Below, piece after piece: positions 5,659 to 62,200 of a DNA stretch of 64,000 nucleotides. Source of the DNA: Tribonema minus (Eukaryota > Sar > Xanthophyceae > Tribonematales > Tribonemataceae); NCBI GenBank assembly GCA_017506865.1, contig JAFCMP010000024.1:186001-250000 (forward strand), given 5' to 3'. The position numbers were made by a program, and so were the translations under genes. Position 1 is the stretch's first letter; each line of letters starts with the position of its first letter. The notes under the pieces were generated by a model. That model had not been told where the DNA came from, made no database searches, and saw only the letters and a program-made list of their open reading frames with translations.

Positions 5659-8600
5659 TCACGTGGCTCTGCCCTCCAGCAGCTCCGCCCATGACGTGAT
5701 GTACGCGATGAGGACGACGCCGCCGAGCAGCGCTGCAAACTTCTTCCACTTGTGATGCGGCGTCTCGAACTCGTCCGCGACGACCTCCGTGGCGCCCACG
5801 TAGACAAAGGTGCCCGCCGCCAGCGACACCAGGACGGCGTCGACCTGAGGAAAGAAGCAGTGCGTCGTGCGAATTTTAGCTATAGCGGTGGAAAGTGAGA
5901 ATCTACAAAAGGCAGCCAACCAATAAAAATTCCATGTGCTTAGATGAGCGTTGCATACAGTTGCAATTTGAAGTGTATGTGTTTTGTAGTGATGACGACG
6001 CCATGCTAGTGACCATCTCACGGCGTATACCAAGCGTTCATGAGGGAGAGGGTTGAAGTGTGAGATTGGTGTACTTGAAGTATAGGAATGTGTGCTTGGA
6101 TTGCGCATCATATCTCTGCTCACTATCTCAAACCTCACAATTGGAGATTGCCCTGCTTGGAAGCCTCGGTACAGGAGATGTCAGGAAACAACACAATGCC
6201 ACAGTACAGTATGATCATGAAGTTGCGTCAGAAAGCATTGCACTGGATATCACCACACTTTCAAGTGCAACATGAAGAAACAACGCATCCTTCAACCGCA
6301 AGTAGAGAGGTTAATGAGTTGTGTTCATGCAGCGTTCATTGATCTTGAAGTTACAATTTTGCAGCGCGAGTGACTCAGACTCACCAGATCCCCCGCGTAC
6401 TGCGCTGCCGCGACGCCGAGCCCCACCCCCAGGGGCCCCACGCAGCTGAACAGCGCGAGCATCTTTACAATCTTCCCCTGCGGCAGCCCCGTCTTGAGGA
6501 ACGAGACCAGCAGCGCGAGCGACTCCGCGGGCTGGTGCAGTCCGATGCTCATGGCGAGCAGCAGCGCGTTGAGACGGCTCGTGCTGAGCCCTAGCGCCAT
6601 CGTCTCAAAGAGGGAGTGGACGCTCAGCGCGAGCAGCAGCACCGTGGCGCTGCGGCCGCTCGCCGCCACCTGGCGCGAGGCATTACATAGGTAGGTGTAA
6701 GCACATGTTGGCATGCTTGCAGGCACTGACAGGCGTTGAAATTGTAGAGTTCAGATTCAGCACCGTGGCGCTGCGGCCGCTCGCCGCCACCTACGCAGGC
6801 AGGTGTAAGCGCGTGTTGGCGTGATTTGCAGGCATTTAAATGATACAGTTCAGATGCGAGCAGAAGCACCGTGGCACTACAGCCGCTCGCCGCCACCTGG
6901 CGCGAGGCATTGCGTAGGTAAGTAGGTATAAGCGCATGTGTTGACAGGATGACAGACGCTGCGAGATCCAAAGGGTCAAACGCCGCCGCGGCGCGGTGAG
7001 GCGGCTCGTGCTCAGGGTGGACGGGCTGTGCGGCCCGATGCGTGCGTCAAACTTCAACTTTGCACTTCAATCCACGCACCTGAGCGCTGTTGCTGCTGTC
7101 TATCGGCTTGATGGTGGACGGGCTGTGCGCGGCCCGTTGTCGTGCGCGTCGTGCAGCATCTCATTCGAGCGTGCGTCCAACTTCAACTATACACTTCAAC
7201 AACGCACCTGAGCGCTGTTGCTGCTGTCTATCGGCGCGATGGTGGACGGGCTGTGCGGCCCGTTGTCATGCGCGTCGTGCAGCATCTCGTGCGTGTCGAA
7301 TGCGATCTTCTCCACAAAGAAGATGAGGTACCCCGTGAGTGTCAAACTTCAACTATACACTTCAACAATGTACCTGAGCGCTGTTGCTGCTGTCTATCGG
7401 CTTGATGGTGGACGGGCTCTGCGGCCCGTTGTCGTGCGCGTCGTGCAGCATCTCGTGCGTGTCGAACGCGATCTTCTCCACAAAGAAGATGAGCAGGTAC
7501 CCCGTTAGCGTCAGGTAGAACGGCGTAGACTCCGGCAGGCCCGAGTTCTCAAAGCCGTGCGCCGCGTGCGGCAGCATGTGGCCGAAGGCAAGGCTCAGGA
7601 ATACGCCGCCGCTGAACGCGTTGGCCATGCTGATGCCCACCTTGGACTCCGTGAATCGCCGCATCTGTTGGTTGCCGTTGGTCATGGTGCACACACCAGG
7701 GGATTTTGTGCACACATGTAAGGTATGTGCTGTGAGATATGTACATACAAGGTGCATATATATACTTCTATATAGTTTTTGGCGATGCTGTTGATGCCCA
7801 CCTTGGACACCGTGAATCGCCGCGCCTGTCGCCGTTGGAAGCGATGCACGGACATTCTTCAGGGGATTTACTGATCCAATGTGACTGCGCATATATGTAA
7901 GGTATGCACTGCGAGATATGTATATACTTCAACTTTTGAGTACAAGGTATACATATAGCTATGGCAGAAAGCAAGGCTCTGGAACACGACGCCGCTGAAC
8001 GCGTTGGCCATGCTGATGCCTAACCTTGGACATGGTGAATCTCCGCGCCTGTCGCCGTTGGTTGTGACGCACGGACATTCTTCAGGGATTTTACTGATCC
8101 AATGTTACTGTGCATACAAGTAAGATTTGTACTGTGAGATATGTACATACAAAAATACCTCGAACTGCGTGAAATGCCGCGCCTGTCGCCATCGGCACAT
8201 GCACATGCGACCTTCAGGGAATGTGCATGCAAGGCGTGCACGTGCTGTCGACAAACCCTAACCCTAACCCTAACCCTAACCCTAAGATGCGCGCAGCAGC
8301 ATAGGTACTTTACTGATGATAATTCACATAATGCCAAGTACTGACTCAGGGTACGTATGCACATGCAAAGAGAGTGACACCGCCTTAGACTCCGTAAACC
8401 GCCATGCCTGTCACCACCGGCGCATGCACAAGCGCGGCCTGCAGCACATGATGCATGTGCGTGCTTGCAATCCGAGGCGCGCAGCATTGTGATGGGATTA
8501 TCAATAACTTGGCGCACGCACGAGGGCGACCTCTAGCGCGTGACGCAAGCTCTGCGCGTGCTTTCGGTCTGACGCACGCAGCATTGTCATGGCATTATAA

Positions 8601-10709: not shown

Positions 10710-13700
10710 ATGGCGAAGGAGCACTGGGATGAGGGCCAGGCGTGGCGCCATGCACTGGCGGCGACGGCGGCCATCAGCATCCTGCCCACCTTGGTGCTGC
10801 CCTTTATACCAGCAAGCGCCAGCAAGCCTGGCAGCGGGCCCCTCAAGGTGTGAACTCTGCTCCTTGCAGTGCTGTAGCTAAGATTTATGCTGCCGGTGCT
10901 GTGTTTAAGGCAAATTGGCCTTTGCCGGCGCACGACGACTTTTTTTGGAAGAAATTTTGTGATGGGTTCGCGCATAGTCATCATAATCAGGATCATGATC
11001 AGTAGAAGACCTGCTGAAAACCCATACGTGCTCATCGAGCGCTGAATGGTTTGCTGGCAGTAGGCAAGCATATGTGACGCGCAGTCCCAACGCAATTTGC
11101 TGCTGCAGTCCAGTAGATTTCGCATCTACTTCAAGTCTCAGCAACGAACACTCAAATCAACAGGCTGCTGATTGAAATAGATACATTGTGCCTGTGATAC
11201 TTATACTCATAATGATCCTGACATCATTACAGTATGTGCAGGCGTGCGCCAGTAGCTTCAGCATTGAGGTCATGTGTGCGACAGTGAAGTACGTGTTTAC
11301 TTTACGACTTACCACGACAATCCGCGCGTTCCCGCATCTTCAAGTCTCACAACAAAAAGTCACTTTGGAGTCATGCTGGGTCTTGCACGGGATGCACTGG
11401 TCATGCGATGACTGACTGCAGGAGGGAACCAAATGCCATTGTGCTCACCCTAGTTGTATTCGGCTGCTGCCCTCAAAGCTACTCGCACAGCCAAGTTTTA
11501 CTGAATGCAATGTACATCGTCCGTAAGCACACAAGAGCGGGCGAGATACAGTTCCGCTTGGACAGCTGGCCATCGTCCGCGCTGTTGCTGTTTGAAAGGG
11601 AGTCAACTCTGCTGGGTGCTATGCGGCATCAGAACCACCTCAGCAGCTGAAAGTTGTACATCCAGTACTGTTGGCAGAACGCTTGCATTCATGTCTCAGC
11701 TGAGTCTAAGTCTGAGTCTGATACGTGGTGTGAGAGCACTGCATGAACTTCGTTTAAAGCACTGATGCGGCTGCGATTCAATACCTCAAGTGGCACTTGT
11801 GTAACATGGTCGTCTTGCACAGAATGCAATCTGATTTCCAATGCAACGCGAAGTTCATGATTCGGGTTGCCGACCAGCGTATAATGGGATTTCCTAAATG
11901 GCGTATAACGTATAATTATAACGTATATATAATCTATACTGCGTATAGCAACGTATATTAATTTATTGGCCAAAATCTGAAGACAACCTCCGATTGAATT
12001 TTTTTTGCTTTATGCACAACAGCGTCAAACTTCAAGAGTCCAGAACACGCGTCGTATTCTACTAGTTCAAGCATACCTGGAAATTAGCGGCATTGCCAAT
12101 TGTTCAACTTTGCTGCCATACCAAACAACCAGCATTAATGTATGCACCCACGCATTCAGTGCATTCGCCTTTAGCTCCAGATTTTAACACAACGTCAGGC
12201 TTGTGAATAAATAATGCACAAACAGTGGTGCTGCACATGTCATGGCATAGCAATTGCCAATGCACACGTTCAGACTTAGGTGCATCACAGCCAGTCACCA
12301 GCAGCAGTTCAAACACCAAATTTGTGTCAGTCCATGCAATGCAGTGCATGCTCAACATGCTTTGATCCATCTCAACAGTACTGTTTATCAGGCACCAAGC
12401 GCGACATCAACAATTGATCCCTGCAAAATGACTGTAGTTACAACCAACTGAACTGTGAACGAATGTATCGCCTCGGTTCAACATCGGAAGTTGAAGTTAT
12501 GGGAAGTTCGGTTTGTCACTTGCACGACCTCAGCACACACGCCACAAACCATTATAGCTGCATAGCTGATGATGATCGTAGCCTTACATTCGTCACGCAT
12601 ACCATGCGCTGAGGAGGCGTTGTCGAGCAGCAAGCCAGGCTTGTGCTGGGAGGTCACGGCTGCAGCTGATTGAATGGACCAGTGAGTGCAGCTCACTGAC
12701 TCGGCGTGCAGGTATTGAGGTATCGAGATGTATCGACCCTTCAGATGCTTCGTCTAACGCAGGAGCGTGCGGCAGCAACTCTACGCTGCTTCCGCATCGC
12801 GGAAACACGCCGTATGCGGCGAAACAGGCATTATAATTCAAAGCGTATATCGAGATCGATATAACGATTATTATAACGTATATATACCTATAACGTATAA
12901 TATACGTTATACGCAGTTGGCAACCCTATTCATGATGTTGTAGTTTGGTGTAACATGGTCGTCCTGCGCACACTGCAATCTAACGTCGAGTTTAACGCAA
13001 ACATCATGCTGTTTCAGTTTGGCATTACATGATCGTCTTGCGCAAAATTCAATCTCATGTCAACTCCATCAAAAAGTTCATGGTTGTTATACTTTGGTGT
13101 TGAGGTTTCTATGCCCGTCTCCACCGAGTTGTTGGCAAAACATTGCAACTTCATGAGATGCTAGATTTAGAGGATTCTGCCTGCTACTCAGCCGCTTTTG
13201 GCTACCACTAACTGCATCAATGTATAGTTCTTCAGAGGTACGGATATGGTTGTTGTGTGGGCTTGCTTCAGTGTTCTGGTTCCAGTGACAGGCCATGTGC
13301 TCCTTATCGGACATCAGCTTTCCACAACTGTGCTTTCATGCTCTGTCGCACCAGCTGAACTGGCCAAATTGAGCTGACGTCCGCCATCTTCAAAAAGGGG
13401 GCAGCTTGCCACGTCACAGATGGTATGCTTCGCACAGCCGCCAGAACTTGTGTTGCCATGAAAATGTTGAAATAAGGCAGCAGTTCAAGCCTTTAGGGGT
13501 GCATTATTCGACAGGCGCAAATCGTTGCACAACGCTTGCAGGCGTGCACAATCACAGCGTACAGTGTGGCAGAGTTCTTGAACCAACATGTTTTGTGGAG
13601 GTACCATTCATTCACTGCGCCCAGCTGAGCATTCGTGTAGATGATGTGATCTCTCGTGGAAAGGCTGCAGCCTTAACGCGTGTACCAGTGGTGAAATGAC

Positions 13701-16700
13701 GCGCTGGTTGGTGTACTTCATACCTATGTGCATGTCCCTGCTCTGAAGCAGGTGCTTACGTACAGCTCAGAGCGGCTCACTGCTGCACTGTCTGCGTTTG
13801 ACCACAATGATGTCAACGCCTCTTGGAGCAACGGGCGGCAGTCATGCGTGCTCACCGCACCGCTTGCCGCACCAGGCCATTGCGTCACGTCATCATGCTA
13901 GGGTCCACAGTGCCAGCTTCAAGCACTTCATACATGTGAACAGCTTTAAATAAACGCACACAATCACACCTTTTTGTGCGCATTGATGTGAGTGGAATGC
14001 GTGTGTTACACACAGTATGTATGTATGCGTACGTACCGTGTAACACTTGCATACAAATTGAAACAAAATCATCGCACCGGCTCACCGCCACGCCGCTGCG
14101 CGCCATCGCCTGAGATCATGCTGGCGTTCGCAGTCGGCGGCAGGCTAGATGTGCATACATCCAAATTAGGTCATACGTCAGCGCACATGTAGAAATGTAA
14201 AGCATCACAGTGCCTCACTGTCGCACCTCTGTGTCACACCTCTGTGCCCTGTTGCTTCAGATCATGCTGGCGTTTGCCGTAGGCGGCATGCTGGGCGACG
14301 TGTTCCTGCACCTGCTGCCGCACCTGATGGCAGCGCACGCGCATGGAATTCATGAACATGATCATGAAATACATGATCATGATCATGGCCACGATCACGC
14401 GCATGAACACGGCCACTCCGACGGGGGTCACGCTCACGGCCACCACCATCATGACGACGCGCACGCGGCAGAGGGGTTTGGTGCGCAGGTGAAGTGAACG
14501 AGTCAATCATGAATGAATGATTGGTTCGATTTCATGTGTGGTTCATGCGCAGCGCTTCACGAACTTGCAGGTCTGCGTGCAAGGCAAGGGGGCGGACAGT
14601 GGGTGCAATTCACTTCAGAGTCCGCGTGTGCAGCTGACGTTGTCGCCCAGTTACCCTTGCCTTCCGTGCTGCTTGATTTCTTTGTGCATGTACTTCAAAG
14701 TATCATATATGGTGTTGACATTTCCGCCTGCATGACGTTAGTGGGCGCTCATGACGGTAAAACGGGTGCTAGTGCTCGTCGCTGCCAACGTCCACGTTGC
14801 GGTTTTGAGGCAACAAAGTGGGGCCGCTGCAACGCTTCCCGATCTGGTCCTTCTCTGCTGCCGTCCTGCAGAGCGTGGCGAGATTTTTTTCGCTTGCAGA
14901 TGGGAGCGTAGGTGTTGAAGTTGACAGTGCTCAAGTGCGTCCTCCTCAGTCACCACTGAAACGTTCACCTGCCATTGTGCCTCTGATAGAGATATGCTGC
15001 CCTACGTTATTGCAAGATTTTTTTTGCTGCTCGAAAGGCTTCTTGCCAGTTAGTGTACGATGTAGATTAAACGTTAAACAAACAGATCTTTTTAGACTTC
15101 TCCAATATGACATTGCAGTGCGTTCACCGAAGCACAGACGCTTCAGTAGGTAGCCTCAGATCACCATCAAGCACCTCCCCTCTCGTCATTCAGCACCTTT
15201 TGCACACACACATCCTGTGCACCCAGGTGATGGAATTACTGACAGTCACCTCTAATAGTTCAGCACGTTCTGTACAACCCCCCCCCACCCCTGCGCACCC
15301 CGGTGATGCAGCTGTTAAACAGTCACCTCTCATCATCCAACACGTGCTTGTACCCCCCCCCCCCCCCCCCCTACCGCACACCCCAGGTGATGGAGCTGTC
15401 AACTGTTAATAATCACATCTAAATTATCCAGCATGTTCTGTACCCCCCTCCCCCCCCCCCCCCCCCCCGCGCACCCAGGTGATTGCAGCTGTTGACCGTC
15501 ACCTTTCTTCGTTTTGCGTGTTCTGTACACCCCCCACGCCCCCACCTGCGCACCGGGGTGACGATTGACAGTCAGCTCTCATCATTTCGCATGTGCTGTT
15601 TCCCCCTCCCTTCCCCCCCAACGCGCACCCCAGGTGATGGAGCTGTTGACGGGGGAGCTGAGCGTTGGCATGACAGTGCTCGGCGGCTTCTTATTCTTCT
15701 TCCTTGCTGAGCGTCTGATACGCGCCGCCACCGGCTCTAGGGACGGTCACAGCCACGGCCACGATCACGCGGCACGGCACAAGAAGGACGACGACTTGAG
15801 CGATGGACAAGTATGTAAGTCATGAGTCATTGAGTACCGAGGTTGCGAGTAGGAACATGTGACCTCGCCGCACAAGAGGGACTACAGCTTGAGCGATGGA
15901 CAAGCATGTGAGTCACGAGTCATCGAGTAATGAGTCTGCAAGAAGGAACAACAAATCGCCGCGTGTGTCAGCAGGTACTGGGCACTTTGGAATCGAGCAT
16001 ACGAGTATGTGAGTAACAAGTCATTGAGTACTGAGTATGTGAGTGCCATGCGGCCACCGCGTGTGTGAACAAGCACCGAGCACATGAGATTTGAAGACAA
16101 GAAGGCTCTGTGTTCACAGCGTTGTGCTGGGCTACCCAGGCACTGCAGCAAAAGTCTGCCATCAGAACAGCAAGCGTGGGGACTCAGCATTCGTGCGGCG
16201 CGCCGCAAGGGCACTGGAGGCTTTGGTGCCGGCAGAAAGAAAACGTGCGTGATGACAACCTTTGTCACTGCAACCAAGAGAATTTGTGGAGCGCGAACGC
16301 CTAACCCAAACCCTAACCCTAAGGTGTGTCTTTCGGGGGACGCTCCAAGCGCCCATTGCCGGTCGCGCGACCATGTCTGCGGGCACACCTTGGGCAGCCT
16401 AGCACGCTAATCTAACCCCTATCCTAACCCTGCGGCATGCGACCGTAGCACTAAGCGTAATCCTAGCCCTAGCACCGCCGTAGTAAACTGCCGTGCTAGG
16501 GTTAGGGTTAGAGCTCCCGTCAACGCGTGCGCACGGCGTGCGGTGCTGGTGCAAATCGTAATACCGGACGCTCCATGGATGTAATAGGCTTGCGCGGAAA
16601 ATGCAAAAAAAAAAGGCAGAAGGGCCTCGATGATGCCGGTCCAGATCATTTGTGTGTGTGGGTGTGTGGAGAATCCGGCAATGGACCGGGCCTGCACACA

Positions 16701-19700
16701 AAAAGAGGTGGTATTCATGTAGTGATCATGTCAGAGTCAATTCATGACATGCCACGAGCTGCACGGTGCTTTTTTCGTTTCAAGTTTGAAGTGCAGGCGC
16801 AGCAGATGTTGACTAGTGGACTCACCAGGCACCTGGCACGTCGCAGGCACTGGTTGAATTTGAAGTTGGATCTTCCTACTGCATCATGGGGGATGACATC
16901 ATTAAGATGACCATGATACTTCCCCCGCCGCTGCCAAGCATGCATCTGTACTTCGAAGTACATATATGTTGTGCCTCAGCGATGCAGGTTTTTGAAAGAC
17001 ACGCACAAAAGTGAATCAACAAAATGTATGACATACCACACGCGTCAGACTTGATTTTCCTACCTGAACAGAGATTGCGACGTTTTTCGTCACTTGTTGC
17101 AATTGTTGTGTGTGTGTGATGATCAGGTGAAGAGCAGAACGGTGGGCTGAAAATTGGGGGGCTGCTTAACCTAGCAGCGGACTTCATGCATAATGTGAGA
17201 CAGTATGCAAGTATTCGTACAGTTATGCACTTTTTTTCCCCCTCTCATTTATTACTTGTGGAGACAAGTCAAAAGATCGTAGAGCTCTAGGTGACAAGGC
17301 GTGGTTAGCCGCCGATGCCTTCCATTGATAGCTGTGGCCCCCGCTGCTGCAGCAATTGAATTAAATGTCATATGTGTACACATGTGTGCTAGTGTTCATA
17401 CAAGTGCACCGGCCAATGTGTGTACTCCCAAGCACTTGGGTGGCTGGTAATTCAACATGCAGGCCTGCATGATTGATTGATTTACAATTGATAAATGTAA
17501 TTGTTGTCTATATGAGTTGGGGAGCTGCTTAAGCTAGCAGCGAACTTCACGCACAATTTGACTGCACCGCTTCTATGTAGTTGCAAGCATTCATAAAGTT
17601 ATGCTGGTCCAAGCGCGTACCTCCGAAGCGCTGAGGTGCCTCATAACCCAGTGCATGCCAACATGCGGGTTTGCATAAGTATTCAACGTTATGATAGAAG
17701 TAGCATGTGTACTTTATTCATTCTTGCTTAGGGCGCGAGAAAGCCCAGGTGAATGGTATGAAAGAAAATCATGCGTGCAGGCTAGCACGCCACACCGCAC
17801 CGATGCATAGCGCAGAGGCAGACGGAGGCAGCCACAAGGTGACAAACACACACTGGTGGTGAAGGGCTGAAGGAAGGTGAAGGAAGTGATATTACTATCA
17901 ATTGCAAACCCTCACGTGCCAGCTCAGGCTTGCTGAGTCACCTACACCATTGATCTGGAGCGGATCTCGAACAGCTCGCGAACAAAACTGCACTTCAACT
18001 ACAACCTGAAGTGCAAACCTCAACTAGGGCATCCAACCCTAATTGTGCAACAGCGCCATATTGTGACAGTATCTAAGCTTGCCGTACGGAATCTACATGT
18101 CGTGTGACAGCCTGAAAGCGTCTCAATGACAATCACATAGTGTGTACTTCAGACTAGCTATTATAATGACCACACTTATGCGCGCGGCTAATGCTGGTGA
18201 CAGCCGTGATGTAGCTCAGTACCATACATGCCCAAGTTAATGCCCCCCTGGGCCAGTGGATCTGTACCTTTGCACAGCACGTTACACGGAGGAGAGGCAT
18301 GCCCTTGGGGCGTTTGCAAAGGGGAGGGGCTTGCATGGGGGGGTGGAGGGGGGGGGTCCTTGGGCATTTACGTTGAACAAATGACCTTTAGCGCGCTCGC
18401 TCACCCGCAAGCAACACAATGAGGCAGAGCATGAGTTTTTTTCAAGTCTAAATTACCGTGTGCACAGGCATCAGGCGAGCTGGTGAATAGGCAGGTGCTG
18501 TGATGAATATCCTTTTATTTATAGAGGTGCATGTACTCTTTGGCACAGCACACTATCCGTGCCGGTGACTGATGGGCTGGCAATTGGCGCGGCACTTCCC
18601 CAGGGCGTGCACTATATATTTTGTCCGCAACAGGTGACAGGCGGGCTGGCAATTGGCGCGGCTTTCTCCACAGGCCACATTAGGGTTTGCCACCAAGTAG
18701 GGTTAGAGTTAGGCTCTACACAAGCTTGCAACTTAGCCAGGCGACGCACTTCCTCTACATCTCTGAATTTGCAATTGCGCTGCGCACGCAGGTGACAGAC
18801 GGGCTGGCAATCGGTGCTGCTATTTCCACGGTGTACTTGCTTCAACACGCTAGATTGCCTGGAGCATGATTAGGGTTGCAAAAAAAGTATTTGGCCACAC
18901 AAATACGGCGTGTTTGGGATGTAGTCGGCCACCAGGAATACGTCGTGAGCAAACTTCAACATGATATGATGCTGCGTGAAGGGCGTATTTGTGGGGCATG
19001 CGGCGAGTCTGCTCAATTCCGAGCATACAGTCTGCCGCAAAAGGGGCACTTGAACTCCACAGTAAACTTCAAATTGCGCTTTTTTGCAACCCCAAGCATG
19101 ATGAAACAAACACCCCATCAAAAATTTATCATCGAGAAGTCCTGCGTTGACGCATGTTCGCCCACATCGTGTGTGCAGGTAACGGACGGGCTGGCGATCG
19201 GCGCGGCATGTTCCACGGGCCACGCGCCTCAAGACGCTCATTTGCCAAACAATTGACAAAACCTCATCAAGAAATTCTCAACAAGAAGCTCTGCGTATGC
19301 ATGTTCAATCACATCATGTGTGCAGGTAACGGACGGGCTGGCGATCGGCGCGGCTTTCTCCACGGGCCACGCGCTGGGGTTTGCCACTACACTCAGCACG
19401 CTGCTACACGAGCTGCCGCACGAGATCGGCGACTTTGCCGTGCTCGTGCAGAGCGGCATGCGGCCGTGGAAGGTATGTATCATATCGTATCATGTAGGGT
19501 AGGTATCGTGTAGGGCCGTATACCCAAGATGATCAAAACAAGTCCAGTGCGCGCATCTTGTTCTTGCGGCAGTGCTCGTGCAGGCCGGCATGCGACCTTG
19601 GAAGTTGATGCAACGTAGGCAGCTGCTGCTCACTAATTTGGTAGTCCACATCAGAGGTAGACGCCTACAGGCAAGTGTAACTGCCGTAACCGCCAAGCGT

Positions 19701-20573
19701 GCAAACGGCACTGAGCATTGAACTGCCATATGCTCCAACAAAAGGTATACATCATGTAGGGTAGGTATCGTGTAGGGCCGTATACCCGAGGTGATTAAAA
19801 CTTGTCCGCATCTTCTGCTCTTGGGTGTACGGCATGCTACTGTTCCGGCTCAGCAAATGCCTCGAAGCGCCGTGCACAGATGTATACATACCGTATCGTG
19901 ACAGCCTCGTGCTGGCGTTCGCGCATGCGGCTCTGGGTTGCAGAGGCAGTACTGACGGCACCGCCGAAGCCATGGATATCCCATAAACGAAGTACATTCT
20001 GGTTGCAAGTCCATGGACATCCACCATCTGGGCTTTTTCGCGCCCTGAGCGAGAATTAACCGAAGTATACGCTGCCATCCTGCTTGCACAACGCAACGCG
20101 CGGGCGATCGCGGCGCAGTTCTGCACCGCCTTCGGCGCTGTCGACGGCACCCTGCTCAGCCTCAATTCCGCGGAGTGGGCGGGCAGCGCCGCCGCGTATG
20201 CATGAATATATATTTGACCCCATCGCGCGGCCTCACGTCAGAGTCGTATCTCACATGATGTGGCTGTTCCGCTCGCCCCCGCCGCCGTAACGCGCAGGCA
20301 ATCGCGGCGCAGTTCTGCACCGCCTTCGGCGCCCTCGCGGGCACGCTGCTCGGCCTCAAATCCGCAGAGTGGGCCGGCAGCGCCGCCGCGTCCGCGCTGC
20401 TCGGCTTCACGGCCGGCGGCTTCATCTACGTCTCGTGCGTGGCGGTGATGCCGGAGGTGCTCTCGTCGCGCTCGGGGCTGGCACAGACCGCGGGCGAGGC
20501 GCTTGCGCTCGCGGCGGGGGTGGGGCTCATGGTGACTGTGGCGGCGACGGAGAGTCACCACCATGCGCACTGA
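10710..20573 (+). CDS. ZIP transporter of the KE4/ZIP7 (SLC39A7, LIV-1) subfamily
   Basis: Six exons: 10710-10847, 14261-14488, 15634-15810, 17138-17194, 19326-19472 and 20298-20573, all phase 0, 340 aa. Helix 1 spans about residues 11-33; exon 2 gives helix 2 ([14 protein letters not shown]) and a histidine-rich loop (about 70-112, many H-D-H and H-G-H). Exon 3 gives helix 3 and a second G-H-S-H-G-H-D-H run. Exons 4 and 5 join into [18 protein letters not shown] (about 191-209), and H228-E-L-P-H-E-I-G-D236 is the KE4 metal-site signature. Exon 6 gives the last helices, ending in E-S-H-H-H-A-H. ZIP7/IAR1 relatives release zinc from ER/Golgi to cytosol; that location is inferred. Exon 4's acceptor could be 3 nt upstream. 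Confidence 0.9.
11854..12936. mobile_element. Non-autonomous hAT-like DNA transposon with 8-bp target duplication
   Basis: The element is 11862-12928. It starts TCGGGTTGCCGACCAGCGTA and its reverse end reads TAGGGTTGCCAACTGCGTAT, terminal inverted repeats of about 22 nt continuing into AT-rich cgtataacgtata arrays at both ends. It is flanked by identical 8-bp repeats TTCATGAT (11854-11861 and 12929-12936). TIRs opening with A/C-GGGTTGCC and 8-bp duplications fit the hAT superfamily. The ~1.07-kb interior has no long ORF, so it cannot encode a transposase. It sits in ZIP7-like intron 1 and interrupts a ~65-bp tandem repeat (units near 11801-11866, 12949-13010 and 13019-13084). Confidence 0.75.
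14085..14145 (+). repeat. Decayed copy of the exon 2 start in the KE4-type ZIP gene
   Basis: About 150 bp before exon 2 the sequence repeats its acceptor and first ten codons (ATCATGCTGGCGTTCGCAGT CGGCGGC) and then diverges. It gives a competing acceptor, but the frame soon departs from the ZIP protein. Confidence 0.75.
15190..15633 (+). repeat. Tandem ~70-120 bp repeats carrying acceptor + exon 3 start + poly-C
   Basis: Five copies precede the true exon 3 of the KE4-type ZIP. Each reads: C-run, gcgcacccCAG|GTGATGGAGCT, a divergent tail with gtcacctctcatcattcagc, then ctgtac and another C-run. Copies begin near 15225, 15297, 15383, 15473 and 15552; the authentic exon begins at 15634. C-runs reach more than 15 nt. 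Each copy keeps a polypyrimidine tract and AG, so each is a potential acceptor. Confidence 0.85.
15860..15950 (+). repeat. Copy of the exon 3 donor edge, KE4-type ZIP
   Basis: Just downstream of exon 3 the end of the exon (coding D-L-S-D-G-Q) and the donor-side intron recur with the donor altered to CAA|gcatgtgagt. Further copies of the intron part (gagtcattgagtac) follow at about 16015-16040. Confidence 0.75.
17513..17568 (+). repeat. Decayed copy of exon 4, KE4-type ZIP
   Basis: The sequence ggagctgcttaagctagcag cgaacttcacgcacaat repeats most of the 57-nt exon 4 (coding [11 protein letters not shown]) with several substitutions and a changed donor. It lies in intron 4. Confidence 0.75.
17706..18108 (+). 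repeat. Dispersed repeat, copy B (two blocks)
   Basis: Block 1 at 17706-17748 and block 2 at 18084-18108 match the element at 4311-4403 in the same order, separated here by extra sequence. Located in intron 4 of the KE4-type ZIP gene. Confidence 0.55.
18555..19250 (+). repeat. Four extra copies of the exon 5 acceptor edge, KE4-type ZIP
   Basis: Copies of CAG|GT(A/G)AC(G/A)GACGGGCTGGC with A-I-G-A-A following start near 18565, 18632, 18790 and 19179, before the authentic exon at 19326. The nearest copy (19179) is almost identical for 60 nt, then shifts frame. The metal-binding D-G-L-A-I-G-A motif is thus present five times but should be used once. Confidence 0.85.
20028..20070 (-). repeat. 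Dispersed repeat, copy C (inverted)
   Basis: The reverse complement reads TTAATTCTCGCTCAGGGCGC then GAAAAAGCCCAG, matching block 1 at 4311-4353. It lies in intron 5 of the KE4-type ZIP gene, just before the exon 6 edge copy. Confidence 0.6.
20095..20205 (+). repeat. Copy of the exon 6 acceptor edge, KE4-type ZIP
   Basis: About 200 bp before exon 6, roughly 100 nt of its start ([11 protein letters not shown]) recurs with high identity, then breaks into unrelated sequence. The AG of the acceptor has mutated to gcgcgg|gcg, so this copy is probably not spliced. Confidence 0.8.
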
Positions 20574-22865: not shown

Positions 22866-25800
22866 CTACAAGCTGATCTTGCGGAACGCGTCGTGCGCCG
22901 CGACGTTGTACGCCTCCGCGAGCGTCGGGTAGTTGAAGACGGCGTTGCGGAAGTAGTCCACGGTTCCGCCCATGGCCATAACCACCTGTTCAACAATTGC
23001 AATGATGGCGCGCCATGCGGTGAGCAACGGGCAGAAATGGCGTAGAGAATGCGCTGGGGACGGTTCGTGGTCAATGCAAGAGGCTGTTGCGGGCACGCGT
23101 GACAGACTGGCACGGCATTGTATGGCAAACCTACGCATTCACCATACCACAGTCATCACCAGACCTGCCATGTCACAAAAACTGGTGCCGCTCATGGCCA
23201 TAAGCGCCTGTTGCGAGGCGGCGGCGACGGCGTGTCAGCGCTATGAGCCGCGCAGTGCAACACAGTCTTGAAACATACGGAAAAGCCTGCGAAGAGCAGT
23301 AAAGTGGCTGACATCGCGCATTCATGTTTCATCATGTAGGGATGGTCTAAGGTACGTACAACCCATGTGGGTATGTTCGATCAACTTCGTTTTGTATATC
23401 AGGAGCAATTGCAGAGGCACGAGTGTCGTGAATGATCCGGCACTTGCTTGTAATGGATATGGTGCAGGCATGCGACATAATGGAAAAAATGGCGCAACAG
23501 CCCAACTTCACACGGGACCTATTCAGTGTGCGAACACTGGACCTATTCAGTATTCGCACCTGTCCAATGTGGATGATCTCTGTGGCGCCCTCGCCAATGG
23601 CGTGCACGCCCAGCAGCTGGAGCGTCTCCCTGTGGAAGATAAGCTTGAGGAAGCCGTCCGCGCCACCCAGCATCTGCCCCTTGGCGAGCTCCTGCGGCGG
23701 CGGCAGCAGCGGCGGTGGAAGCGACGGCGGCAGCAGCAGCGACGTGTGAGACCATCATAATCTATACATACTGTTGCACAATTAACTATACTCGAAAAAA
23801 TGTTCTACTCGCAATCGAGTCAGTGCCCAGCGCCCCTCCCCCCCCCCTCTAGCGCTTCCTTCGTGATTGATACTTTGACATATGCTATGCTACAGAGAAG
23901 CATGCCTTTTCTTTTAACTTTTTTTGCGGTTCGTGTCAAAGAAACCACATCTAAGCTCGGAGACGTCGTTGACTCCGCTCCGACTCCGACTCCGCCCCGG
24001 CCGGAGCGGAGTCGGAGTCGTTAGGCATATCTCATGTTTTTGCTCTCTGGCCAGGGACTCCCCCCCCTCCTCTGTCAGCTGCAATACATACAAACTCCAT
24101 TTAGTAAATACTTGTAAGCAGCAGAAATTCACAGTGAAATTTGTCAGCTGCAACACACGACTCCATTTAGCCACTACTTTGAAATGGCAAAAACTCACTC
24201 TGTGACAACTGTCAGCTGCAATACAGGACTCCATGTAGCAAGCAACTGCTTAGCAGTAGCAAAAACTCACGGTGAAGTCGGCGACGCCGATCTCGTAGGG
24301 GACCCCTTCCTCCTTCAATTGCGCATCGGGTTTCCCCATCATGCTGATATCGGGTATGGTGTAAGTAAAACTGATTCAAACTTCAACACTGACATTGATC
24401 TGGTTTCAACCCTACAGGGGTCTGACTTACCCAGACTTGAAAATATACACACAACACTTCATAATCGACAACGTTAGTATTTAGCAAGGACTCACCGTAA
24501 AGTCCGCGACGCCAATCTCGTAGGGGACCCCTTCCTCCGTCAATTGCGCCTCGGGCTTGCCTATCATGCTGATCTCGGGTATGGTGTAGATGCCGTAGGG
24601 GAAGAGGTGCTCGCTGGAGCGGCCCAGGAAGCCGCCGTCCATGGGGCTCCGGATCTGTCAGCCAGAAGAGTGATATTAAGCATTGAGCTTTGACGCTGTC
24701 ATCCGACAAAACTCATGAGAGCGCAGGGAACAAAATCCGTCATCGATATGCGCCGATTAGCGCCATGGTGCGCATGAACCTGACCCTAACCCTAACCCTA
24801 ACCCCTACCCCTAACCCTAAGTGAGCACGAAGCGCAGACAGCGTCCACAACGTCGCCAGTACTGTTTTCTTCTGCGATCTCGATTGTGCGAATCATTCCT
24901 GTCAACTACTGTGAGAATTATGGCCGCTGCAAGCGCAACGCGCCCTCTCATCATGCTGTTGTCCGCAGTGGCGGCACCTTCGTCCAGCGCCATGGCGAGC
25001 GCTAGGCGCAGAAACCGCCCACAATTGTCAAAGCATCCCTGTTTACGAAACCCCCGCATTCCATGTGATTTTGTGTTTCAAGAAGTGTGATTTTTGTACT
25101 TCAAAAAGTGTCCATCGTGCGCGCAGCCCGCCCACTCACTCACCATGCTGTGGTCCGCAGCGGCAGCGCCGGCGGCGCCGTCGTCGAGCGCCATGGCCAG
25201 CGCCGCGGCGTGCTGCCCGTGCCACATGTGTTTGGAGGTGTTCTTATCTTCTGCCATCTCAATATTTTCGCCGAAGCTTTATGAATGTAAGCAATCTTGA
25301 GGAAAGTGCCCATTTTGTGCACAACGCGCCCTCTCACCATGCTGTGGTCCGCGGCAGCGGCGCCGTCGTCGAGCGCCATGGCCAGCACTATGCACACAAA
25401 GCGCCCACAACTTCAAAAGTATTATTATCTTCTGTGGGCGGGCGGTCCCACTGTTTCAAACTATTGTGTATCGTGAATACAATGGCCATCTTGCGCGCTC
25501 TCACCATGCTGTGGATTGCGGCGGCGGACCCCACGGCGCCGTCGTCGAGCGCCATGGCGAGCGCCGCGGCGTGCTGCCCGTGCCACTGCCATTCCTTTCT
25601 TCTGTGCCCCCAGATTTCCATGTATTTAAAAAAGTGTCCGATATGTGAGCGACGCGCCCTCTCACCATGCTGTGATCCGCGACGGCTGCTGCGGCGGCGC
25701 CGTCATCGACCGCCATTGCCAGTCCTACGCACAGAAAACGCCCCCCCCACCCCCCGTCTTCGGAAGCACTCTTTTCTTCCATGCTTTCGACTTTCCACGC

Positions 25801-28800
25801 TATTTTAGAAAGTACTCCCTGAGGAAAGTGGTGCTGAGTTCTCACCATGCTGTGGTCCGCTGTGGCGGCGGCGCCGGCGGCGCCATCATCCAGCGCCGTG
25901 GCGAGCGCTGCGGCGTGCTGCCCGTGCCACATGTGCAGCGCGGCACGCCGCCCCTGCTCCATGCCATTATTGTACTTCAAAAAGTGTCAATTTGGGCGCA
26001 GCCCGCCCGCTCTCTCACCATGCTGTGATCGGCGGGCGCAGCGCCGGCGGCGCCGTCATCCAGCGCCATGGCGAGCGCTGCGGCGTGCTGCCCGTGCCGC
26101 ATGTGCAGCGCGGCGCGGCGCCCCCGCTCCATGTGACTATCGTACTTCAAAAAGTGTGATTTTTGTACTTCAAAAAGTGTCCATCGTGCGCGCAGCCCAC
26201 CCACTCACTCACCATGCTGTGATCGGCGGGCGCAGCGCCGGCGGCGCCGTCATCCAGCGCCATGGCGAGCGCTGCCGCGTGCTGCCCGTGCCACATGTGC
26301 AGCGCGGCGCGGCGACCCTGCTCCATGGACGTGGAGGCGAGCGCGGGGTAGCCAATGACGTCGCCGCACGCGTACACGCGCGGGTTGGACGTCTGGTAGA
26401 AGTCGTTCACCTCCAGGAGGCCGCGGTTGTCCGTCTCGAGGCCCACGGAGCCGAGCGACAGGGAGTCGGTGTTGCCCTGCATGGGGGCGGCGCGCGCGCG
26501 GGACGGTCACTGGGTTCAGAATTGTGCAATGTTGCGACACGGGGCCGGCGTTACGGGGTAGGGTTAGGGTTAGGTTAGGGTTGGGGTTAGGGTTAGGCTA
26601 ACCCTGAGTTGCCCTTGCCCAGCGCGGACATGTATTGCACTTGATGCTGCTGTGGAACCGAGCGACAGGGAGTCAGTCGGTGTTGCCCTGCGCGAGGGCG
26701 GTGTGCGTGCAGAGCGGCCGCTGAGTTAGGACTGAGCAAGCTTGCGCCGTGGCACGATGCAGGAGCAACGATCAGGCGAGACGCCACGGATTTCATTGCG
26801 CTAGATGCAGGCTTTGTGGAGTTAACGCTGAGTGAGTCGGTGTTGCCCTGCACGGGGGGTTAGGGTTAGGGTTAGGGTTAGCGCGTGCGGCGCGGTGGCA
26901 GAGTCAGGACTGAGCACAATGTTGCGTCGTGGCGCGAGGCGGGGCCGTTGGACACGCCGCTAACCAGCATGGAATTCATTGCGCGTGATGTTGCTTATGC
27001 GGAGTCAATCCAACACTGAGCGAGTCTGTGTTGCCCTGCACGCGGCATCATGGCAAGGTCAGTAATGAGCACCATGTTGCGTCGTGGCATGATGCAGGGC
27101 TAATGATCAGGCGACACGCCATTGCCCAACACATAAGGTATGACGCTTGATGCTGCTGCGAAGCAGCGCAACAGGGAGCGAATGTTGCCCTGCGCGCAGC
27201 GGCGCGGTTGCGGAGTGAGAACTGTTCCTCCGTGCCAGCGATCCGGCGAGACGCCGCTGCTCAACACCTGAAATGTACTGCGATGTTCTGTGGACCACAA
27301 GCGACAGCGAGCCGGTGTTGCCCTGCGCAGGCGGCGCACGCGCAGCGCGGTTGCAGAGCTGAGACTGAGCAGTGTTGCGCCGTGTCATGATGCGCGGCCA
27401 ACGATCAGGTGAGGCGCCGGTTGCTCAGCACGGGCTTGATGCCAGTTTCGTTTCGTTGAGAACCAATGAGCGAGCTTGTGCGTGCGGCGCGGTGGCGGAG
27501 ACAGAGCTGAGCAGCGCTGCGCTGTCGCGCGTGACGCAATAACAAGAGTCCGTGCGGCGGAGGCTGGAGGCGAGCAGTGTCGCGCCGCTGTGTCAGCGAT
27601 CAGGCGAGTCGCCGCTGTCCAGCGCAGAATTGATGAAGTTGCTGCCGCACCGCGTACCTGCCATCCTGTGGTGTACAGCACGCCTAATTAGCGGACGCCC
27701 CTGGTATCAATCATTGATAAAAAGGTTTAGAAACTTTATCTGCCTCTGATGCTGCGGTTCTCGAGTATACCTGCCCATGATGTACACGTGAACGCCACCT
27801 GCCTCGCATTATGCGCATGTGCTGAGACCATCCCACTTACATGATGATATTGTGCCCGCGCGCATAAGCCTACCCATGGCACACACCATCACCTGCCCTA
27901 TCGTGCCGCAACGCCCCGTTACAGAGAGTGCGCCACCTCCAGAATTCAAATGTATTGCAGCTGACCCACTGCAGAAACCACACTGCTTCTAATAACGTGA
28001 CCACGCGGCATACCTGCCTACCCATGGCGTACAGCATCGCGTCGCCCACCACTTTCTTGCCGGAGCTGAGGTGCGCGACCACGCGCCCCCTGCCCCCTGA
28101 GCCCCCCGCATCCGTTTTCTCCACGCGTTCGACCTGAAAGCAGCAGGGCACAGGTGTGGTGGTGAGTGTTGCAGCGTAGAGAGCTGCGTAACCGTCAAGC
28201 GTGCAGACAGCACTGAGCATGTAAGTGCCATGTGCTCCAACAGTGAGCGATGTTGCGTGGTGTTAAGTGCTGTGACATTGTGGTGGCGCCTGCCCCAAGA
28301 GCCCCCTGCATCTGTATTCTCCACACGTTCAACCTGAGAGCAGCAGCCAAAGGTGCGGTTTTTGAAATATGTACCAAAACTGGGCTTAAAGCTACGGTCA
28401 TACTCTGAAGTACATGGAAGTTCATGGACATGTGAACTCGAAGTCTTGACCCACCGTGCGTGGAAGCACATGAGTGTGTCAACGTGGAAGCCCGAGGGTG
28501 CGTCAACATGGAGGCTTTGCATCAAATTTGAAGCCGGGCCTGAGCCTTGGCAAGCTGCTCGCTACAAAAAAAAACGGTGGCTGCAGGCAGATGTGGTCCA
28601 CCTCCTCCTAACCCTAGTTTAATCCACAACGAGTAACGAGACATGATGCGTTGACGCGGTGCCTCGCTCACCATCTAGCCCTGGACCCCTAGTTCAAACC
28701 CTAATGGTAGCAAAAGATGATCGTTCATGCGGTGCGTCGCTCACCTCTCATTCAGGAGGAAGCGCGCGTCCTTTGTACGCATGGAGTACATGAGCGCCTG

Positions 28801-51554: not shown

Positions 51555-53013
51555 TCACGCGGCGGTGGTGGCATTTTGTTGAAGTTCCTGCCGTAACTGG
51601 CTGCAGAAGTCCTCGTCCAGCGCGTCGTCGTCCCAGTCCTCCTGCCACTGCGCGGCGTCCGCCGTGTCCTCCTGTGCCGCGCTCCAGTTCTCCTCCTCAA
51701 ACTCCTGCGCGGCGTGTGCGGGGCGACGCGCGTTCGTTCAATCAGTTGCATCAAGTCAGATGGTATGTGTATCAGTTACATGTCTCCACATGCGGATAGC
51801 AGTGTGTCCGCCGTGTCCTCCTGCGCCGTGCTCTAGTTCTCCTCCTCAAACTCCTGCGCGGCGCGTGAAGGGCAACACGCGTCGCTCGAACCCTCACAAC
51901 ACCTGCGCGTTCAGTCAGCCACGAGAGAGCTCAGATGCTACGTGTACTGAATACTGGAATGAAAGCAGCGTCCGCCACGACGTCTTCCTGCGGGACCGTC
52001 CCATTTCCATTTCCTCTCCCGCGCGGCGTGCGGGGGACAGCGTGCTGCGCGCGCCTCCAAGTGAGCGTCAATACCAGTTACACTCGCTACTGTACGTGCT
52101 GATGCTTGCACTTCAGCAGTGATTATATTTGGCTTCTGCGGCATCCTCCTGCGCCGCCGCCCAGCTCTCCTACTCAGGCTCCTGCGCAGAGCGCGTAGGG
52201 CGGCGCGCCGCGCGCGCTGTGCAGGCGCAGTCGCGCTTGTGGTAAATCACAGCTCGAACATGGTGGGGCGAGCGCCGGACGTCGTATGTAGTGTATGCTT
52301 TTACAATAAGCGCAAAGATGTGCTCACTCATCGCTGACCATGCATGGTTGAGTCTGCTGCATAACAGCACCCCATCTGCACCATGAGCCTTTATGCTGTC
52401 AACAGCGCATCTGACGCGTTGCAGGCGTTGATTGTTGTGCTATCAGCATGTACAGCAGCCAAGCGTGCGTGGCGTGGTCAGTTTCACACCAAGCGGAGTG
52501 CTGCACAGGAGCAATGTCCGGGGTTCAGTCTGCCATGAAAATGAGGCAACGCTGTCAGTTGTGCTGATTGCAACATGACAGCGCCATGGTGTGGCTCGGA
52601 TGCACTGCGCATACGAGTTTTATCACAAAAAGAGGAAAGTGCGAGGCCAAGTCTGTGCCGCTATTCGGCTTGCTGGTTGCAGTTTTCAGGTGCGTCCGCG
52701 TGCCGGACACAGTCTCTGTGATGTAGCGAAAACCTCAACAAACCGCTAACATTCATCCGCAAGTACACTTAGCCCTGCAAACTTAGTGTACGGATACACC
52801 GTATCATCAGCTTGTCAGCTTTCAGCTTTCATCAACTTCCATCACCTGTTCGACGCGCCTGGAGCTCGCCCTAGAAAGATCGTGCGAAATCACACCAACA
52901 GTGATCCTGCTGCTTGAGGAGGGCTAGTGTGCAGGCATCGTTCTCTTTACCTCAAATTCATCGTCTTCTTCCAATCCCTCCACCACCGGCACTTGCTCCT
53001 TCTTATCCGCCAT
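51555..53013 (-). CDS. SEM1: SEM1/DSS1, 26S proteasome lid and mRNA-export/BRCA2-binding acidic protein
   Basis: Two exons, 53013-52951 and 51704-51555, phase 0, encoding exactly 70 aa, the length of human DSS1. Exon 1: M-A-D-K-K-E-Q ... G-L-E-E-D-D-E-F-E. Exon 2 continues E-F-E-E-E-N-W (human L-E-E-D-D-E-F-E-E-F-P-A-E-D-W), then W-Q-E-D-W-D-D-D-A-L-D-E-D-F and the C-terminal helix L-R-Q-E-L-Q-Q. The two acidic, Trp-containing segments are the family's binding regions for lid subunits, Sac3/Thp1-type complexes and BRCA2. The 1.25-kb intron splits the first acidic motif. Its acceptor edge is duplicated at about 51805-51875 (with an in-frame stop) and 52138-52195, and its 3' end is duplicated downstream. 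It is divergent from the next gene, 268 bp between start codons. Confidence 0.92.
51800..52200 (-). repeat. Two copies of the SEM1 exon 2 acceptor edge
   Basis: Copies at about 51805-51875 and 52138-52195 repeat the exon 2 start (E-F-E-E-E-N-W-S-A-A-Q-E-D). The first has a stop in the third-last shared codon; the second is more diverged but keeps a CTGCGCAG-like acceptor context. Confidence 0.85.
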
Positions 53014-53863: not shown

Positions 53864-53922
<59 letters not shown>

Positions 53923-56900: not shown

Positions 56901-56932
<32 letters not shown>

Positions 56933-59256: not shown

Positions 59257-62200
59257 TTATGAGCTGCCCCCTTCCGGGCCGCCGCCGTCCCCCCCCTCGT
59301 CCCCCCCCTTACCGAACTTGGAGTCCGGCGCAATGGACGCGGTGAGACCACATTGCTGCAGGCCGAGGCAGTATGTCTCCGCTTGGCTCTTCCATGCCTG
59401 CGTGACCGTAGCCTTGCCGGCCTTGTGCGTCTCCATGGTGATCTCGTACGCTATTTTCATCGTCAGCTTCTTGACCACCTGAGAGGGGTCGCGCAAAAGC
59501 TAACTTGTGAAGATTGAAAGAAAACGGTTGGGATCGGACGCAGTCACTCAACTCACTGAACGCTTCATGAATTCACATACGGATGCGCCCGCATGGTACC
59601 GGTACTGTGCGCTGAGGCCTTGACGACTGAAGTCGCGGGAATTCATTAATGCGCCTGCATGATCAAAAGCTGTGTATTAATGCACTTGCAGGACCAAAAG
59701 TGCGCACGCTTTTATCTAATTCGATGAAGGCAATCGTCTTCAGGCGCTTTGGAACAGACAAAAAGAGCAGCTTGCCATTGCGGGAGAAGTGTAGGTGCCT
59801 GCGGTGGCTCAGCGGTATGCCGCCTTACACGCCAAATCCACGGATTCTCAACCCTGACTGTCACGCGGTCAAATGCATGCGCTCGGATGCTGAGCGGGGC
59901 CTGCAGCACCTTTGACAGCATATAGGGCGTGGTGAGCAGACACACACTGCATGTGGAACTCTTGTTGATTCTTGCTCAGGGCACGAAAAGTGCAAGTGCC
60001 AATACTTCTTGCTCACGCAGAAATGAAGCCCATGCCAGGTGACTGATGTCAGGCTTGCCATCAGAAAACATACCGTTGTGACAGTCTCGTTTTGTGACAG
60101 TTTCAATGCTTGTTGACGATTGCTCATGCGTACTACATGTGTACTACGTTGACGGTCCTTAAAATTGCCAGGGACGCTGCCGCAACAGCTCCAAAAACTG
60201 TGCCACCGCGTCTAAAGTGACATCTACACCAGGGCTGATAGAGCTTTCAAGGCGCCGCTCCCCAGTTCAGGTCGGAGAAACAACGCCGCCAACACCAACG
60301 TTCATGGTACAGTTCTATACCTCAAAGTATGTTCATGTATGTGAGTCTGTCAGGAGTGTGCGCAATGTCCTTGCAGCGCAACATCAACATGCCGCACTGT
60401 CAACCCTAACCCTAGCCCCACCCCTGACCCTAACATAACCCTAGCCCTAACCCTTATCCAGGACCTCGTTGCGCCTCATCAGGTCAAGCCTACGCTCGCA
60501 GCACCGACATGCGCTTTGCGCGTGCGTTGTCGCAGTTCATCTGGCCGCTCGGCCCTTTCTGCACGCCTGCATCCTCTGCTCACCTCATCGGCAATGATGA
60601 TGATCGTACTTTGTGCTGACCTCTGCAGTCCGTAGTGCCTCCGTGCTGACTATGGTATGGTCCGATACCGTAACACATTGTTGTACCATGCATTGTTTTT
60701 ACCGGGTTCTTGTGTCGCACGTCTATGAAACACTAGGAGAAGAGGGGCACAAAAATAGGAATGGGGGGGGGAAGCCCTACCCCTACCCTCCACGTATAAC
60801 CTCCACCCATTCCCAGAGAATTCCTTTTTGTGACGTACCTTGGTGATGCTCAGCGTAACGTAGTCAAACGTGTGTATGTCGTCGTTGTGCAGTATGACTC
60901 GCCACCACTTCTCCTTGTCCAGCTGCTCCTTTCGCTGCACTTTGTCCTCAACCTTCTCCTTCACCCTGCAACCAAGAACCAGCAAGGGTTTGGACATTGT
61001 CATACAATTCAAATACCTCAAAATCCTCATTTACGCTTCCTTCAGCACCAGCGAGGGTTTAGACATTGTCATATAAGGTAACTCAACTTTCTCCTTCACC
61101 GTGCCGTCAAACCAGCAGTGTTTTAGGCATTGTCATACCATCCAAATACCTCAACTTTCTCCTTCACCGTGCCGTCAACACCAGCATTGTTGTAGGCATT
61201 ACCATACCATCGGATACCTTTCGTCACCACGTATCTGTAAGGTATCTTATCATTTTTAGAAGTGTTCAGATGGTCGATTTATTGTGCTACACAGTTGTCG
61301 GCCTGAAATGATTACTGTGATGATGTGCTGCGTTGTTAGGGTTAGGGTTAACCCTAGGGTTAGGGTCAGGGTTAGGGTTTGTTTTGGCATGAATTGCGAC
61401 TATGACGCAGCGGGGGGAAACACTCATGATGTCAAGGGTTAGGGTTAGGGTTAGGGTTAGCGTTAAGCTCATTGCACAGCACCATGCGCCAAGGAATCTG
61501 CATAGCCTGGTATGGCATGGCACCGATTTTAAGCTTGCGCAACCCGGTTACAACAACTCCGCGCCCGCAGATTACTGTTGCTGCAGCCCCTTGCCAGGCG
61601 CAGGCGCATATGTCAACCTTATTGCAATGTGGTGTACTTCAAGTTTGAGGCGCAAGCGCAGTGTCCGACCGTTGAGCATACCCAACATACCTCGTTGTTG
61701 TGCGCACATGGCTGGCATTGGTCTGATCATACCACAGGCCACAATCTTCGTGTTGTATGGCAACTAGGTCAGCAAACTATTGTGTTGCCCATCGGCGACT
61801 GGAACTGCATCTGTGTGAAAAACTGTTAGCTGTCCATCCTCAAACTTTCAACATTTACCATCCACCCTGCATTGACGTATTTCATAAATCTTGTAGTTTT
61901 TTGTTTTCTCAATTTTACATCTGGATTGGGCTCATGTTTCGTGAAGCATACCAACTCTAAGTGATGGTTTGTTTCGACTTCTTTGTGCTGGCCTCAACTC
62001 TATTCTTTGAGACAAAACAAACAGCATACCGCACAGACATGCTGTTTGAGAGCTGTGGCTTTGCTTCGTGTGCAGTGGGACTAGACCCCAACTTGACTGG
62101 TAACATCCAACTTCAACCTCAACCGTTCATCCACATTCACGTATCAGTTTACTGGTTTGGTGTGGCCTGCACGCAGCCACCATGATGAATGTCGTGAGAG

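Follow-up and report, generated by a model that had tools for sequence, protein, structure and literature searches.

The DNA analysed here, referred to as the window, is a 64,000-nt stretch of the genome of the xanthophyte Tribonema minus (contig JAFCMP010000024.1, positions 186,001 to 250,000, forward strand), and many of the introns in its genes contain decayed direct copies of the edges of the neighbouring exons. Models were built for five genes, comprising 22 exons, 37 splice edges and 20 introns, with a T. minus protein at NCBI, a single transcript of the species, homologues and Pfam matches as evidence. The first of two ZIP genes, ZIP-A, lies on the reverse strand (5662..7664; exons 7374-7664, 6385-6669 and 5662-5844). 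The second, the SLC39A7-like ZIP-B, lies on the forward strand (10710..20573) and follows P0001, a T. minus protein at NCBI whose 366 residues can all be read from the window in seven segments, corresponding to the exons 10710-10847, 14261-14488, 14872-14934, 15634-15814, 17127-17194, 19326-19472 and 20298-20573. A soluble transhydrogenase (sthA-like) gene on the reverse strand (22866..34911) was assembled from the T. minus transcript P0132 and homologues, and has nine exons: 34390-34911, 32819-33015, 31155-31436, 29013-29079, 28014-28133, 26213-26476, 24496-24654, 23560-23691 and 22866-22985. Seven of the nine are supported by P0132; exons 34390-34911 and 31155-31436 have homology as their sole support, and the latter is missing from the transcript. 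Residues 1-28 of P0132 are antisense to its own spliced mRNA, which is probably an artefact of transcriptome assembly. The remaining two models, also on the reverse strand, are a SEM1/DSS1 exon (51570..51704, acceptor at 51704; Pfam PF05160) and a ClpS-like gene (59257..60965; exons 60839-60965 and 59257-59478; Pfam PF02617), the second exon of which scores just under the curated Pfam cut-off. The ZIP-A, SEM1 and ClpS models rest on Pfam or open reading frames with in-frame GT-AG joins, those of ZIP-A on the reading frames. The modelled introns are 383-3413 bp long, and the G+C fraction of the modelled genes is 0.659 in exons and 0.536 in introns. The N-terminal exon or exons of ZIP-A and a Zn2Cys6 gene fall outside the modelled set; self-BLAST places local repeats in the latter at 43123-43421, 42268-42600 and 41607-41941. 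A scan of the window with Rfam at gathering thresholds gave no matches.

Comparison of the window with itself by BLAST gave 92 local direct pairs (pairs closer than 3 kb), no local inverted pair and 9 distant pairs. An exon-edge copy was found in the adjacent intron at 22 of the 37 splice edges, where a match was accepted if it exceeded the best of 100 shuffles by at least 6 score units; two of these edges, the ClpS acceptor 60965 and the sthA acceptor 22985, have 20-bp matches only. A second catalogue, built with a score of at least 46, no more than nine copies per edge and a probe limited to 150 bp, likewise contains 22 of the 37 edges (11/17 donors and 11/20 acceptors), 20 of them in common with the first set. 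It lists 53 copies, 51 of which extend to the splice site with an exon part of 13-139 bp, and the number of copies is one at nine edges, two at six, three at four, four at one and seven at two. Several of the edge repeats are also classed as tandem arrays by Tandem Repeats Finder (TRF).

The two largest arrays belong to the sthA-like gene. Seven donor-edge copies of exon 32819-33015 occupy 31974..32800 in steps of 103-123 bp and are of two alternating types, and seven donor-edge copies of exon 26213-26476 occupy 24933..26150 in steps of 161-194 bp, with full and short types alternating. P0132 joins the latter exon straight to exon 24496-24654, skipping all seven intervening copies. By eye, the short-type copies of this array follow an acceptor-like sequence (T-rich...TAG), so that they resemble small cryptic exons flanked by both splice sites. 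Further donor-edge copies in the same gene, all on its strand, follow exon 34390-34911 (34011..34247), exon 31155-31436 (29859..31076) and exon 24496-24654 (24073..24363, of which 24257-24363 is 89% identical and 24073-24270 is older). Its acceptor-edge copies precede exon 32819-33015 (two, 33184..33480), exon 31155-31436 (31482..31915), exon 28014-28133 (one, 28308..28359) and exon 26213-26476 (decayed, 26611..27513). Near-whole-exon copies occur only at the 67-bp exon 29013-29079, where two donor-edge copies (28675..28944) cover 65-67 bp and the homology stops at the acceptor edge; telomere-type repeats adjoin the breakpoint at this acceptor edge, as judged by eye. Interstitial (CCCTAA)n repeats of this type are found in introns and elsewhere in the window, at 8254-8285, 24779-24820, 26550-26597, 35426-35481, 60402-60454 and 62355-62384.

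In ZIP-A, on the reverse strand, exon 7374-7664 has two donor-edge copies with an exon part 92-95% identical (7040..7373) and two acceptor-edge copies (7779..8152) with further decayed pieces at 8164-8606, and exon 6385-6669 has two acceptor-edge copies (6758..6939). In ZIP-B, on the forward strand, acceptor-edge copies precede exon 14261-14488 (one, 14089..14146), exon 15634-15814 (a decayed array, 15214..15600), exon 19326-19472 (four, 18559..19246) and exon 20298-20573 (one, 20092..20197, exon part 89% identical), and donor-edge copies follow exon 15634-15814 (one, 15870..15950), exon 17127-17194 (one, 17517..17561) and exon 19326-19472 (19569..19807, with the exon part at 19569-19604 and the intron part at 19751-19807). 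The four acceptor-edge copies of exon 19326-19472 lie at 18559-18594, 18631-18693, 18788-18859 and 19106-19246, and a dispersed element (about 18867-19093) interrupts the series. On the reverse strand, the SEM1 exon has two acceptor-edge copies within 51806..52208 (51806-51882 and 52131-52208), and an array with a 69-bp period lies upstream of the ClpS acceptor (60985..61219), found by both TRF and BLAST, in which the edge copies are weak. A 68-71 bp tandem repeat also crosses the 3′ end of the SEM1 reading frame (51423-51588), and is either a duplication in the 3′ untranslated region or an unrecognised donor edge.

Mismatches between exons and copies number 102/1157 at codon position 1, 103/1149 at position 2 and 225/1152 at position 3 (8.8%, 9.0% and 19.5%); position 3 differs from positions 1 and 2 together (p = 6e-19), and positions 1 and 2 do not differ from one another (p = 0.96). 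Given the equal mismatch at positions 1 and 2, the copy is not maintained as protein, and the doubled mismatch at position 3 is what silent changes in the exon itself would contribute. The copies are therefore neutral relics, for which the exon is a reference close to frozen and the copy a neutral clock. A net frame shift is present in 18 of the 53 copies. GT or AG is retained in 39 of the 51 site-reaching copies, a proportion not above that expected from neutral decay (p = 0.26), and selection preserving the splice dinucleotides was accordingly dismissed. Overall, copies and exons are identical at 2940 of 3354 positions, a difference of about 12%. Over 30 bp, the mean identity of the 53 copies is 0.83 on the exon side and 0.63 on the intron side, with 0.44 for random sequence; homology thus extends into the intron flank, which is more decayed than the exon part. 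Measured from the splice site into the intron against the nearest copy, identity at the 22 edges is 0.69 at 0-20 bp (null 0.41) and 0.59 at 40-60 bp (null 0.52) and beyond that is close to the null, with fewer edges contributing as distance grows. In a separate observation, nine of the 20 exons with a modelled acceptor start with GT, forming AG|GT acceptors; duplicated acceptors of this kind would place AG|GT sites within introns, which might be relevant to recursive splicing or to the origin of introns by duplication.

Of 51 steps at modelled edges, 36 fall between 100 and 200 bp, and the median distance to the first copy is 155 bp (minimum 93). Within the two seven-copy sthA arrays, copies of alternating types share derived states, which indicates that copies were made from copies. 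The first-pass annotation of this DNA had described one to seven repeats of exon edges with the donor copies in the downstream intron and the acceptor copies in the upstream one, and all of this stands: matches at 22 of the 37 edges exceed shuffled controls, the catalogue gives the same range, and the arrangement holds. However, tandem duplication across a splice site followed by selection leaves the copy on the intron side whichever type of edge is involved, so this position is no separate clue to mechanism. The description of decay as growing with distance is borne out in part, in that 10 of the 13 multi-copy edges have their best-preserved copy closest to the edge, but the order of copies fails as a clock in both seven-copy arrays, where decay is non-monotonic. 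The ClpS repeats it listed are likewise real as an array, but weak at the edge itself.

Outside the window, loci were sampled from the T. minus assembly (158.18 Mb in 554 contigs), first 19 loci (174,520 bp) and later 25 in all (229,520 bp). Direct pairs in the first 19 numbered 240 local and 3 distant, and there were 93 inverted pairs; Markov-shuffled loci contained no pairs, and five of the 19 had no local direct pair. The inverted pairs are concentrated (81 of the 93) in L018 and L019, small contigs dense in direct and inverted repeats, unlike the other sampled loci and probably rich in transposons or satellites. Window and 25 loci together contain 416 local direct and 94 local inverted pairs, of which these two contigs give 96 and 83. 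Coding segments in these loci were predicted with a codon score that recovers 19 of the 22 modelled exons, and segments that were short, of low complexity or like decayed copies were dropped from the count of segment ends. Outward copies were then found at 25 of 111 ends and copies on the wrong side at 3 of 111, the outward copies coming from nine of the 25 loci; the window counted in the same way gives 20/49 outward and 1/49 opposite. Repeats flank predicted exons on both sides in four loci (L025, L016, L015 and L004). Nine further loci were fetched around chaperonin (CCT) exons chosen by a Pfam search blind to repeats, and four have edge copies: L027, with about five acceptor copies before the exon (step near 190 bp) and one donor copy after it, L029, with one 37-bp donor copy, L032 and L035. 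The other five (L028, L030, L031, L033 and L034) have no clear edge copy, and all of these except L033 contain local duplicates not assigned to edges. Copies were present at two of six CCT last-exon acceptors. The suggestion that the process is genome-wide thus gains from both the segment ends and the CCT loci, but a circular-shift test outside the window, given below, is weak; to call edge duplication the rule in this genome is too strong, considering the 22 of 37 edges, the two of six CCT acceptors and the five loci without a local direct pair.

The explanation that we favour, and consider probable though well short of certain, is recurrent tandem duplication biased to exon-intron borders. 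Small direct tandem duplications would recur in the T. minus genome, mostly in steps of 100-200 bp at modelled edges, and would arise, or survive, with a frequency across borders that exceeds the one inside introns several-fold to about thirteen-fold. When the duplicated unit spans a donor or an acceptor, one copy would stay with the exon through selection while the other would drift neutrally in the intron, and once two copies are present, copies of copies would enlarge the array. As the repeats are direct, lie close together, contain unspliced sequence and match the gene in which they lie, tandem duplication at the DNA level is most likely, and the act itself would be slippage or unequal exchange. 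Long introns combined with short exons favour exon definition; given that the introns here are long and the exons short, a copy with one splice site would probably be harmless. A candidate cause of the bias would be a hotspot of nicking or fork stalling, either at the step in base composition between exon and intron or at an exon-positioned nucleosome. Such a hotspot would be consistent with first copies lying at a median of 155 bp, and the G+C step and the near-nucleosome step size are hints towards it. The first-pass suggestion that introns are lengthened is supported, the process acting as local direct duplication. Roughly one third of the modelled intron DNA consists of recognisable local duplicates, and the remainder may hold older ones. 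A stronger form of the proposal, in which mutation aimed at the borders by exon chromatin, transcription or splicing deposits copies of exon edges in introns roughly tenfold faster than ordinary local duplication does, and so lengthens and renews these introns, is put forward tentatively, with rather less than even confidence.

The alternative that survives best is that local tandem duplication is uniform in all non-coding DNA and the edges stand out because the exon is a frozen reference; near exons only border-spanning duplications would survive, and introns may have grown in this way. We judge this rather unlikely. In its favour, the frozen-reference effect is directly visible in the codon positions, and since a frozen exon approximately doubles the lifetime of a recognisable copy, an excess at borders is expected even under uniform duplication. 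Duplicate families in the 20 introns were compared with edges by shifting, the telomere-repeat family 61335-62385 being excluded from the null: 22 of 31 families touch an edge, with 9.9 +- 2.3 expected when shifted. Among families that are also found with the exons masked, 15 of 24 touch an edge against 8.3 +- 2.1 (p = 0.0025). The nine remaining families are divided between four whose edge match attains the lowest possible p (0.005), two without a match, and three that are ambiguous (best p 0.015-0.02, with several comparisons each).

The same 20 introns were also simulated under about 20 settings that included decay, deletions and small indels, with the BLAST scoring unchanged. The real introns, for comparison, have 22 families at edges, 9 away from edges and one telomeric family, an edge share of 0.71 and an intron coverage of 0.31. 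A border rate 12-13 times that of the interior gave an edge share of 0.70-0.74 and a coverage of 0.25-0.32, and a rate six times that of the interior gave a share of 0.61. Under uniform duplication at constant length the share was 0.37-0.43, with a coverage of 0.69 in the one setting in which it was measured. Growth from 150-bp introns does allow uniform duplication to attain the observed edge share (0.56-0.75), but at a coverage of 0.80-0.88, and the addition of unique-DNA insertions, in six settings, lowered the share to 0.26-0.38 and the coverage to 0.04-0.25. Uniform duplication at constant length, with growth or with insertions was rejected in the settings tried, since each version fails on edge hits, share or coverage and none fits all three jointly. 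The 3′ ends of coding sequences (CDSs) are frozen-reference borders as well, and outward copies occur at no more than 1 of 11 of these, while splice edges have them in 24 of 43 cases (Fisher p = 0.007). This comparison mixes criteria, as the five ends in the window were scored from BLAST lists and the six CCT ends, like the CCT acceptors, from BLAST pairs. The one candidate among the CDS 3′ ends is that of SEM1, possibly a splice site. Taken together, the family shift test, the simulation and the CDS ends favour a real border bias, an excess that the first-pass annotation could not establish; the several-fold to thirteen-fold size given to it depends on the modelled rates.

A number of observations nevertheless weigh against a process peculiar to borders. 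Over all loci, the closest pairs fall at 100-200 bp in 57 of 93 cases near coding segments and in 56 of 112 away from them, and this shared peak points to one general process; local copies were also found for 37 of 337 random non-coding 80-bp tiles. The circular-shift test of duplicate families against coding edges gave 27/100 overall, with 14.4 +- 3.2 expected, but outside the window, where it was run before L022-L026 were added and with L018 and L019 excluded from one count, it gave 10/60 against 6.4 +- 2.0 (maximum 13), which is not clearly significant, and border enrichment is weaker there. Within the window, 15 of the 37 edges have no copy by the shuffle criterion, homology over the whole step is clear at some of the 22 edges and lost at others (for example 24496 and 20298), and at least one gap between copies, in the ZIP-B array, holds a later insertion. 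In the simulation, two settings that combined border bias with unique-DNA insertions left too few edges with copies (7.8-13.4 of 37). Finally, the case for a bias comes from a single window, with five genes and their 20 introns, and depends on the assumptions of our own simulation.

It is very improbable that the duplicates are functional, whether as alternative or mutually exclusive exons or as extra sites that aid splicing. The retention of GT or AG in most copies and the acceptor-like sequence seen by eye ahead of some short copies would suit such a role, but the equal mismatches at codon positions 1 and 2, at half the level of position 3, are those of a free copy of a constrained exon, the splice dinucleotides are at the neutral expectation, and functional exons were rejected on the codon-position evidence together with the frame shifts. 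Furthermore, both the P0132 transcript and the P0001 protein skip the copies, and use of the extra splice sites, unlike the lengthening of introns, finds no support.

Still less probable is that mobile elements, such as introners or miniature inverted-repeat transposable elements (MITEs), carry or created these introns. A dispersed short element is indeed present in one array: the insert at 18867-19093 in ZIP-B is MITE-like, about 225 bp long and with ends (GGGTTGCAAAAAA...) that resemble inverted repeats by eye, and the scoring of 40 among 268 candidate places gave at least 39 relatives with identities of 87-93%. A 7-mer, TTGAAGT/ACTTCAA, is also enriched 13-fold over dinucleotide expectation, with 66 sites in the window that lie mainly in introns or unannotated DNA, some as close inverted pairs, and are possibly leftovers of short mobile elements. 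However, a genome search found that the insert is the only dispersed part of the ZIP-B array, the copies match the exon of their own gene, the window has no local inverted pairs, and two sthA arrays are essentially private to their gene in the 158 Mb, with one weak 75% match elsewhere; an introner or MITE origin was rejected on the match of copies to their own exon and on the privacy of these two arrays. The least probable explanation, an assembly or haplotype artefact, was rejected because the approximately 12% difference between copy and exon has a codon-position pattern foreign to sequencing or assembly error, and edge copies occur on many contigs.

The edge arrays are a visible, datable record of intron lengthening, in which the exon is a fixed standard for reading the age of each copy. 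They make two questions testable in one organism, namely whether mutation senses exon borders and how the spliceosome chooses among up to eight similar sites. We know of no other described genome with such exon-edge arrays, which would still apply if the bias proved to be uniform duplication seen against a frozen reference.

Searches of the open-access literature, with subscription journals mostly outside their coverage, found no report of such arrays, and the passages available from a paper on Ectocarpus transposons (PMC12477816) contain one mention of Tribonema and do not describe the pattern. Introners, in the portions of PMC9860276 that were searched, resemble the present case in that introns are shaped genome-wide, but are dispersed related elements whereas the T. 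minus copies are private to each exon, and Tribonema is not mentioned in that text. The direct repeats of Rogers and Bendich 2025 also lie at intron borders but, in the available part of PMC11782384, are 4-30 bp long and come from a comparison between an intron's two borders, whereas the T. minus units include up to about 140 bp of exon as well as intron flank and recur as many as seven times inside a single intron. Intron gain by tandem duplication of an AGGT-containing exon segment (Rogers 1989, Gao and Lynch 2009 and Hellsten 2011, as cited in the passages available from PMC4974935) is similar in that an internal duplication supplies splice sites, which may be compared with the exons here that begin with GT. 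That model, as given there, predicts the start of the downstream exon at the start of the intron and the end of the upstream exon at its end, unlike the T. minus copies, which repeat an edge together with its own intron flank. The nearest likeness described in the same passages (PMC4974935) concerns an RNA-dependent RNA polymerase gene of potato, where a tandem duplication crosses one intron-exon boundary and, as here, an intron end and the start of the next exon have a direct, diverged tandem copy. The potato case is one event in one gene and produced a new intron, whereas in T. minus several genes and both types of edge are involved, the copies form arrays, and existing introns are lengthened. 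Compared with known boundary-crossing tandem duplication, the T. minus copies are new in scale and possibly also in aim.

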